From positions 1 to 58,847 of the forward strand of contig JAKBPE010000007.1 of assembly GCA_021829835.1 (NCBI GenBank): a stretch of DNA of 58,847 nt, in the 5' to 3' direction. Positions 7,837-10,660 of this stretch are shown in pieces. The translations under genes were made by a program, and so were the position numbers. Under the pieces are notes generated by a model. The model worked only from the letters and a program-made list of their open reading frames with translations. It had not been told where the DNA came from and did not search any database. The first letter of the stretch is position 1, and every line of letters begins with the position of its first letter. This stretch comes from a bacterium. GTDB taxonomy: Archaea > Micrarchaeota > Micrarchaeia > Micrarchaeales > CABMGC01.

Positions 7837-9492
7837 TTATTCAGGCATTCCTCCCATTCCTGGAGGCATTCCGCCTCCTGCGCCAGCGCCTCCAGACCTT
7901 CCTTTGGAGCTTATCATATCATCTATCCTAAGGATTGCAGCTGTTGCTTCTGTAGCGCTTGAAAGGGCTTGGAGCTTTACCTTCAGAGGCTCTATTACTC
8001 CTGGCTTTTCCATGTCAGCTATGGAGTTGGTGTACACATCTATTCCATAGACCTTCCCAGAATCTGTTTTATGCTTAGTCCTTAGGCTTACTAGAGTATC
8101 TATGGCATCCATCCCTGCGCTGTCTGCAAGTGTCTTAGGTATGACTTCAAGCGCGTCTGCAAATGCCTGTATTGCAAGCTGCTCTCTGCCTCCTACGTCA
8201 GTTGCATAGTCCCTTATCTTTGAGGCTACCTCTATCTCGGTACTTCCTCCTCCGGTCACATATTTGCCTGACTCTATTGCGCTTGCTAGTGCACCTAGAG
8301 CATCTGTAAGTGCCCTTTCTACCTCATCGACTGTCTGTTTTGCGCCTCCCCTTATGAAAATGGTCACGCTCTTTGGATCTTTGCATTTCTCTACAAATAC
8401 CATCTGTTCTCCTGAGACTTTCTTCTCCTCAACCATTCCCGCAAAGCCGAGATCCTCTTTTGTGAGGTCATCAAGGCTTGTTACAAGCCTTGCGCCAGTT
8501 GCCTTTGCAAGTTTTTCCATGTCGCTCTTCTTTGCTCTTCTGACAGCCATTATGCCTGCCTTTGAGAGATAGTGCTGTGCAACATCGTCTATTCCTTTCT
8601 GGACGAATATTACGTTTGCTCCGCTCTTTGCTATCTTTTCGGCCATCTCCTTCAGCATCTTTTCTTCCTGGGCTAAGAATGCCTGCATCTGATCTGGAGA
8701 GGTTATCTCTATCCTTGCATCAGTCTCTGTCTTTTCTATCTCCAGAGCGACATCAAGTAAAGCTATCTTCGCGTCCTTTATCTGCTTAGGCATTCCAGGA
8801 TGTGCTATCTCCTTGTCTATAAGGACACCGTTTATGAAGCTGGTCTCTTCTATGGAGCTGCCTTCCTTCTTCTCGAGCTTAATGAAGTCTCTGTCTATTG
8901 TTACTTTGTCTCCATTAGTTATGGATACCTGTTTTATTGCCTGCAATGCTAATTTTGCGAGCATCTGCTTTGTCTCTGGGCTTCCTATGTTCTTTGAGCC
9001 CATCGAGATCATTGCTATCTTTTGAAGCTTGTCCTCGTCGTTCAAGCTTATCTTGCCTGCTATTGAGTTTAATATCTCATATGCCTTGGATCTTGCCATC
9101 TCGTAGCCTTTTATTATTGCTGCAGGAGGTATCCCTTGGTCGAGTAGGCTTCCTGCATTCTTAAGCATCTCTCCGGCAATTATCACCGCGGAGGTTGTTC
9201 CGTCGCCTACCTCCTTGTCCTGAGTCTTGGCTATCTCTACCATTATCTTTGCTATAGGGTGCTCTACATTCATCTCTTGCAGGATTGTTGCTCCGTCGTT
9301 AGTTATTATTATGTCTCCTAATTCGCTTACAAGCATCTTGTCCATTCCTTTAGGACCCAGAGTAGTTCGCACTATGCTGGATACCGCATACCCTACTGCA
9401 ATGTTGGTACGCTGGGCTTCCTTTCCGATTAGTCTGCTTGCCCCTTCAGGTAATATCAAATACTGTTGCCCTCCTAGTTGGTTTTCTGCCAT
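7837..9492 (-). CDS. ths: Thermosome (group II chaperonin) subunit
   Basis: GKEAQRTNIAVGYAVSSIVRTTLGPKGMDKMLV...GDGTTSAVIIAGEML...GGM tail; internal start MAENQLGG preferred to 9522. Confidence 0.97.
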   Translation of the reverse strand: MAENQLGGQQYLILPEGASRLIGKEAQRTNIAVGYAVSSIVRTTLGPKGMDKMLVSELGDIIITNDGATILQEMNVEHPIAKIMVEIAKTQDKEVGDGTTSAVIIAGEMLKNAGSLLDQGIPPAAIIKGYEMARSKAYEILNSIAGKISLNDEDKLQKIAMISMGSKNIGSPETKQMLAKLALQAIKQVSITNGDKVTIDRDFIKLEKKEGSSIEETSFINGVLIDKEIAHPGMPKQIKDAKIALLDVALEIEKTETDARIEITSPDQMQAFLAQEEKMLKEMAEKIAKSGANVIFVQKGIDDVAQHYLSKAGIMAVRRAKKSDMEKLAKATGARLVTSLDDLTKEDLGFAGMVEEKKVSGEQMVFVEKCKDPKSVTIFIRGGAKQTVDEVERALTDALGALASAIESGKYVTGGGSTEIEVASKIRDYATDVGGREQLAIQAFADALEVIPKTLADSAGMDAIDTLVSLRTKHKTDSGKVYGIDVYTNSIADMEKPGVIEPLKVKLQALSSATEATAAILRIDDMISSKGRSGGAGAGGGMPPGMGGMPE

Positions 9493-9674
9493 ATTATCAC
9501 TTGTTTTCTTTTTTAAGTACAAATAGAGACGTTTTTCAAAACAATTCTTGCTATTCTGAAAGACAATATATTATGCCAGGCAAAATATTTATACCTTTGG
9601 AGAGAGGCTTTGATAGTGCAGATGCATGCCTTTTAGTCGAGAATAGGGCTTCCGGATGAGTGGTTTCCCGAGAT

Positions 9675-9688
9675 AGCTTTAAAAAGCT
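9675..9688 (+). promoter_or_regulatory. Palindromic TATA-box-like element AGCTTTAAAAAGCT
   Basis: 6-bp arms, 2-nt spacer, contains TTTAAAAA about 30 nt upstream of the ATG at 9715. Confidence 0.5.
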
Positions 9689-9714: not shown

Positions 9715-10023
9715 ATGGCAAAGGAAGAAAAAAACAGGAAGCCCTTAGTTAAGATAAACCCTAAGATAAAGATACAAAACATAGTGGTAAAGTCGGATCT
9801 TCATGCCAATATAGACCTTTTTTCTCTTTCAAAGAATATCAGGGAAGTTGATTACGAACCTGAACAATTTCCAGGCGCGATATATAGGATAAAGGAGCCT
9901 AAGGCAGTTATAATATTATTCAAAAATGGAAAACTGATCTGTACCGGGTCGAATACAACCAAGAATATAAAGATAGTACTCGAGAGGGCAACGAAGGTCA
10001 TATCGAAGTATGTAATTTCTTGA
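9715..10023 (+). CDS. Single-repeat TATA-binding protein (one TBP saddle half)
   Basis: IKIQNIVVKSDLHANIDLFSLSKNIREVDYEPEQFPGAIYRIKEPKAVIILFKNGKLICTG: a complete TBP repeat, but only one copy in the 102-aa ORF; stop followed by unrelated ORF. Confidence 0.85.
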   Translation: MAKEEKNRKPLVKINPKIKIQNIVVKSDLHANIDLFSLSKNIREVDYEPEQFPGAIYRIKEPKAVIILFKNGKLICTGSNTTKNIKIVLERATKVISKYVIS

Positions 10024-10027
10024 GGTC

Positions 10028-10660
10028 ATGTTTGGTTTTGGGTTTATAGTTTCAAAGAGTAAGCCAAATAACGCAGATTCTTCTATTCCTTCTGGATATA
10101 ATTCACAGAGTAATCCTTCTGCTCAGTCTGTAAATCCTACATCATCCGCTTCTTCCAGAGGCACAGGTACGAAAGTCAGCCGCTTACTTGTGATTGGAGT
10201 AGTGGCTGTAGTGATAATTGCATATTTTGGATATTCGAAATTCACAGTAAATAAGACAAGTGTCTCTTCCAATAGACAGGGACTGACTTTAGGTTTGGGA
10301 AATTATGAGTGTACCGGATACGCAGGATTTACATGTGATATCCAGAGTATTAATTCTAATAATAATACAGATAGTATTACCTTGAGTATAAGTCAGAATA
10401 GTGGCAGTAATTGGACCGATGTAAAATTCTTTTTAATGAATTATTCTTTTTATGATCAGAATTATAATCTTGGTATTTTTCCAAGTTATAATGTAAGCTT
10501 ACCCGCGCTGAATAACGGAAGTATTGCGAAGATAACTTTGTCAGTTCCTGCTATTTCAAATAAATCGAGCGACTACCTTGTTGCTAGTTACAGTACTCCA
10601 GATGAGCCGAATGCGACATCATCAGTAACATTAGGTGAGATTGGATCGCAGATTCCTTAA
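10028..10660 (+). CDS. Membrane-anchored protein of unknown function
   Basis: Ser/Pro-rich N-terminus, one TM (LLVIGVVAVVIIAYFGY), Asn/Ser-rich ectodomain. Confidence 0.55.
   Translation: MFGFGFIVSKSKPNNADSSIPSGYNSQSNPSAQSVNPTSSASSRGTGTKVSRLLVIGVVAVVIIAYFGYSKFTVNKTSVSSNRQGLTLGLGNYECTGYAGFTCDIQSINSNNNTDSITLSISQNSGSNWTDVKFFLMNYSFYDQNYNLGIFPSYNVSLPALNNGSIAKITLSVPAISNKSSDYLVASYSTPDEPNATSSVTLGEIGSQIP

Follow-up and report, generated by a model that had tools for sequence, protein, structure and literature searches.

One-repeat TATA-binding proteins in a micrarchaeal genome and many of its relatives, and their probable action as a dimeric saddle

The window analyzed here is a stretch of 58,847 nucleotides from a micrarchaeal draft genome of 992 kb (38 contigs, 89% complete). 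It carries a short gene, hereafter B, encoding a TATA-binding protein (TBP) with a single repeat, and a second gene of this kind, hereafter A, lies on another contig of the same genome. The features concerned are the following:

7837-9522, minus strand: thermosome gene, divergent neighbour of B, which also adjoins B in several relatives
9678-9685, plus strand: putative TATA box TTTAAAAA, at -37 to -30 from the ATG of B, by consensus match only
9715-10023, plus strand: one-repeat TBP paralogue B, 102 aa, with Pfam and PDB matches and conserved in relatives
9763-10011, plus strand: the TBP repeat proper (PF00352 positions 1-85), from its motifs and an AlphaFold2 model
10028-10660, plus strand: downstream ORF of 210 aa with one hydrophobic segment, outside the TBP, from the Pfam scan and the ORF list
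C12:16595-16843, on another contig of the genome: main one-repeat TBP A, 120 aa

We compared the B protein with the Pfam TBP profile PF00352 and obtained a match of 86.7 bits (E 9.6e-25; curated cut-off 22.9 bits) in a single stretch covering positions 1-85 of the 85 in the profile, in agreement with the original prediction that the ORF at 9715-10023 holds one complete TBP repeat. In a phmmer search against the PDB, the best match was the M. jannaschii TBP 2z8u (E 6.3e-36), and B aligned in turn to both halves of two-repeat TBPs. The full-length profile match above the cut-off, together with a half-saddle fold, places B in the TBP-lobe superfamily (PF00352). By contrast, the two tandem repeats in one polypeptide that characterize a classical TBP are lacking in B and in its relatives, which are likewise one-repeat proteins (60-89% identity). 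The nearest of these are named as Candidatus Micrarchaeota (81-89% identity) and B is also present in a Mancarchaeum record; the taxonomy of the tree tool places several such named records in Microcaldota. The downstream ORF gave no significant Pfam match and is, judging by its sequence, unrelated to TBP, and the six-frame search of the genome revealed no second repeat beside B, as predicted. Gene order showed that the thermosome gene adjoins B in the window and in several relatives (L111, L112, L115).

The DNA-contact residues of B were compared with the yeast repeat, using the letters and residue roles that we take the latter to have. B carries the motifs QNIV (dyad Asn, Val), YEPEQFPG (stirrup, first intercalating Phe), ILFKNGK (second Phe, Lys) and LICTG (Ile, Thr), and the intercalating Phe pair on which the prediction had relied is thus present. 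The equivalents of N69, V71, F99, F116, T124, R105, K110 and K120 (yeast numbers) are kept, as are both stirrup Glu, a pair that is invariant in the one-repeat proteins sampled. The V122 position is Ile in B, as in all one-repeat proteins sampled, and L114, a minor-groove contact, is Ile in 10 of the 10 B proteins sampled, a conservative change. A loss of DNA-contact residues, named beforehand as a finding that would count against the gene, was not seen, L114 to Ile being the only replacement among the contacts checked.

The AlphaFold2 monomer model of B (pLDDT 83), built from 10 sequences only and with a low-confidence N-terminal tail, showed the topology of a TBP half-saddle. It superposed on half of human TBP 1cdw with an rmsd of 0.8 Å over 81 columns and on many other TBP halves with 0.8-1.2 Å in most alignments. 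The S1 strand is short in this model (25-28), which fits an edge that would need a partner. The model of a natural two-repeat TBP from Micrarchaeota, whose halves closely resemble each other, was a full saddle (pLDDT 93) with a TM of about 0.8-0.9 to TBPs and a long S1 in both halves.

The six-frame search of the genome returned two TBP matches only, B and A, each with one repeat, and no two-repeat TBP. The idea that B might be a specialized TBP beside a normal paralogue was therefore not borne out: a paralogue exists, but it is itself a one-repeat protein. In the repeat tree, B is the sister of A (UFBoot 89); B is a paralogue of A that apparently arose in the ancestor of the order and is absent in some genera. 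The TFB of the genome is ordinary (364-aa frame, two cyclin repeats), and both cyclin repeats are also present in nearly all related genomes checked. Besides this TFB, the same genome holds another, divergent TFB-like ORF (L191, G000:C19:9512-9778; 300-aa frame, 24.9 bits).

We then considered the distribution of these genes. TBP matches were found in 59 of 60 relatives, all 59 with one-repeat genes and none with a complete two-repeat TBP, G021 having a partial tandem at a contig end. The single-contig genome G033, from the same family as the window (f1), has exactly one one-repeat TBP, A; the single-contig genomes G042, G048 and G058 of the sister family f2 have two one-repeat TBP genes each and no others; and G007 (3 contigs, 97% complete) has A alone. 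On these genomes, missing data are excluded as the cause of the absence of two-repeat TBPs. The genome-wide check proposed with the original prediction, for a second TBP with two repeats, thus came back empty for the genome itself and for its closed relatives. Nearly all f2 genomes carry two one-repeat genes, which form the A and B pair in those read, and many f1 genera have A alone, with B absent from G007, G033 and others.

These counts bear on whether the gene is an artefact of assembly, frameshift or binning, the real gene having two repeats of which one was lost in the draft. The fragmented and incomplete state of the genome would allow this. However, the same short gene, with a start and a stop of its own, was met again in dozens of independent genomes, single-contig ones included, and the second copy in the same genome also has one repeat. 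The frameshift or assembly error that the prediction itself had raised is excluded by this recurrence, and we regard the probability of any such artefact as negligible.

The survey was extended to 215 genomes of the phylum, including drafts of varying quality, and families were tallied from sampled members, among the matches listed. In the members read, a single one-repeat TBP was found in f8, f9, f10, f13, f14, f15, f17, f22, f24 and f25, up to three in f11, and two-repeat TBPs in f3, f4, f5, f6, f7, f12, f20 and f23. The observation is therefore larger than first noted: one-repeat TBPs occur in the genome of the window and in many relatives across the phylum. Diapherotrites have two-repeat TBPs, with G230 as the sole exception.

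Several individual loci were also recorded. In G021 (f1), a contig ends within an in-frame tandem of two A repeats (L039, G021:C39:10700-11423; also L026), identical at 93 of the 93 bp compared; this may be a two-repeat TBP re-created very recently or else a product of assembly. In the f2 genome G093, the TBP matches include one to a canonical two-repeat protein of 185 aa, of the ordinary archaeal type (L104/L052, G093:C43:2733-3251), present by contamination or horizontal transfer. Three unlinked one-repeat TBPs (L078, L079, L080; G081:C1) lie in the two-contig f11 genome G081 and could permit combinatorial dimers. Weak single TBP-lobe-like matches of about 95-116 aa were found besides the main TBP in Diapherotrites (L324, L325, L326, L327) and at L323 (G158:C12:19300-19539); L324-L327 share an EF.PKK/R-like front and, with L323, may constitute a small TBP-lobe family. 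A viral origin was rejected, as a scan of IMG/VR gave two-repeat TBPs, save one locus split across two frames.

Gene order was informative on orthology. A adjoins L21e, RpoF and DUF655, a neighbourhood common to the one-repeat TBPs of many families, to the two-repeat TBPs of Micrarchaeota and Diapherotrites and to the one-repeat gene of G230. Therefore, A is the TBP orthologue, as its synteny with archaeal TBP indicates, and it is at a single locus that the number of repeats varies; B is a paralogue. In the repeat tree, all micrarchaeal repeats, from one- and two-repeat genes alike, formed one clade with both Diapherotrites halves (UFBoot 100). The one-repeat sequences formed a clade of their own (100/97). 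Their placement with the canonical N or C repeat was tried and abandoned, as the alternatives were not rejected (AU p 0.42 and 0.45; 88 columns).

That the one-repeat clade could be assigned to neither canonical repeat would be in keeping with these proteins being relics that predate the TBP duplication of archaea and eukaryotes. However, 88 columns are too few for so deep a node, and the gene neighbourhood is that of the two-repeat TBPs of sister families and Diapherotrites. In addition, G142 has one repeat (L093, G142:C11:137433-137675) among the two-repeat relatives of f6, which makes the change in repeat number recent in at least one case. The locus common to A and the two-repeat TBPs favours the view that repeats were gained or lost within the phylum; a relic left untouched since before the duplication we consider very improbable.

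Two histories of such a change were weighed. In the first, the one-repeat TBPs arose several times by secondary halving of a two-repeat TBP, through in-frame deletion between the repeats, without re-duplication. This accords with a sister phylum that is nearly all two-repeat and with the lone one-repeat gene of G142; the front of the latter is nearer to the N half than to the C half of L097 (27/34 vs 18/34) and tied for L156, weakly suggesting a possible chimeric origin. By contrast, the most parsimonious history on the RpoB tree needs two changes, with the second repeat lost at the base of Micrarchaeota and regained in a nested group; the backbone of this tree is weak, and its f17 row had an extreme branch. 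The halves of the micrarchaeal two-repeat TBPs also count against simple halving: the N and C halves share 49-77% identity and in several cases group together, as re-duplication predicts, although gene conversion would look alike. Elsewhere, the corresponding identity is 40-54% in the other archaeal TBPs compared, 29% in yeast and 51-55% in Diapherotrites. For the micrarchaeal two-repeat TBPs, a single N clade was not rejected by the AU test (p 0.209). For Diapherotrites, halves orthologous to those of canonical TBPs were rejected (AU p 0.007) and the two halves pair with each other, therefore pointing to independent duplication or gene conversion. Overall, we give halving close to an even chance. 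In the second history, the TBP of the micrarchaeal ancestor was a dimer of one-repeat chains, and a new round of duplication and fusion within the phylum gave rise to two-repeat TBPs again; we propose this tentatively, as a serious possibility that stays somewhat below even.

With one repeat per polypeptide, a saddle would take two molecules, and dimerization, as the original prediction had supposed, would be the simplest route. We consider it likely that the best explanation of gene B and its relatives is a dimeric one-repeat TBP that forms a saddle on the TATA box and works with a normal TFB. Two one-repeat subunits would join across the dyad, S1 against S1, and restore the saddle of two fused repeats. 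The dimer would bind and kink a TATA box of the ordinary kind, located some 30 bp before the start codon, and would be recognized by the normal two-cyclin-repeat TFB. In A-only genomes, the saddle would have to be an A:A homodimer; in the genome of the window, it would be A:B and/or B:B. With a complete TFB stirrup on each subunit, the platform presented by TBP would be symmetric or nearly so, and direction would be left to TFB and the BRE. TFB-BRE contacts can orient archaeal complexes. Dimerization, binding to DNA and TFB, direction and the pairing of B with A are all steps that we infer.

For B, we also considered that it may no longer be a promoter factor but a protein whose single lobe binds DNA or regulates, for example by titrating A in a dominant-negative manner while A:A initiates. 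Its absence from several f1 genera, in which A shows no visible change, is in keeping with this, as is the invariant Leu-to-Ile change, which could alter DNA binding. However, B keeps the remaining contacts and both stirrup Glu, and two one-repeat genes persist in nearly all f2 genomes; we therefore judge this role unlikely. The same absence also counts against B as a general partner in the dimeric saddle: B is dispensable in places and may have a specialized or regulatory role.

The promoter element was analyzed in the A-only genome G033. All-A/T octamers peaked about 29 bp upstream of start codons (207 at -45 to -16, vs 105 in shuffles and 32 further upstream), much as in the two-repeat genome G133. 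This peak suggests that a full-length TATA-like element is still in use, with no visible shrinkage to a half site. We also considered whether a palindromic TATA box might betray a symmetric dimer. The G033 motif TTTTTATA correlated with its own reverse complement (r 0.92), mostly from A/T content, and offered no useful difference from the box usual in archaea. For G042, G133 and the window, the motif searches failed to settle on a TATA box.

Compared with classical TBP (PF00352; M. jannaschii 2z8u, P. woesei 1ais), B shares the repeat fold, the intercalating Phe pair, the dyad Asn, the minor-groove Val/Thr, the phosphate-contact Lys, the YEPEQFPG stirrup and a two-cyclin TFB partner in the genome, and differs in that each polypeptide has a single repeat where classical TBP has two, fused together. 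The two-repeat TBPs of Micrarchaeota and Diapherotrites occupy the same locus, bear the YEPEQFPGAI and LFKNGK signatures in each repeat and fall in the same fully supported clade; they differ by their fused repeats, with unusually alike halves in Micrarchaeota. The N-terminal domain of RNase HIII and other single TBP-lobe proteins likewise have one lobe and bind double-stranded nucleic acid, but are parts of other proteins and not initiation factors (Ravarani 2020, PMC7221094). B does not belong with DUF3378/RNase HIII (17.5 bits vs a cut-off of 27), and RNase HIII structures were matched only at a Foldseek E of 0.33. Poxvirus VITF-3 is also a divergent TBP system assembled from separate chains, but it pairs a TBP-like with a TFIIB-like subunit (PMC12917281), whereas here two TBP repeats would pair.

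In a study of TBP evolution, archaeal TBP is described as a protein of two lobes, N lobes being as numerous as C lobes both in archaea and in eukaryotes (PMC7221094), and DPANN surveys list TBP as present without comment. Our searches of the open literature turned up no description of an archaeal TBP with one repeat, an absence that is no proof of novelty. Two repeats are regarded as universal for TBP in archaea and eukaryotes, and here a large archaeal group has a one-repeat orthologous TBP. Genomes with A alone force a homodimer, if TBP works there at all. One-repeat archaeal TBPs thus offer a natural means to test how the saddle first formed, whether transcription can be oriented without an asymmetric TBP, and how readily the duplication arises or disappears. 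If two-repeat TBPs did re-evolve from a one-repeat ancestor in Micrarchaeota, the duplication behind classical TBP would be one that can be undone and repeated, and the dimeric state supposed for the earliest TBP would be on view in living cells.
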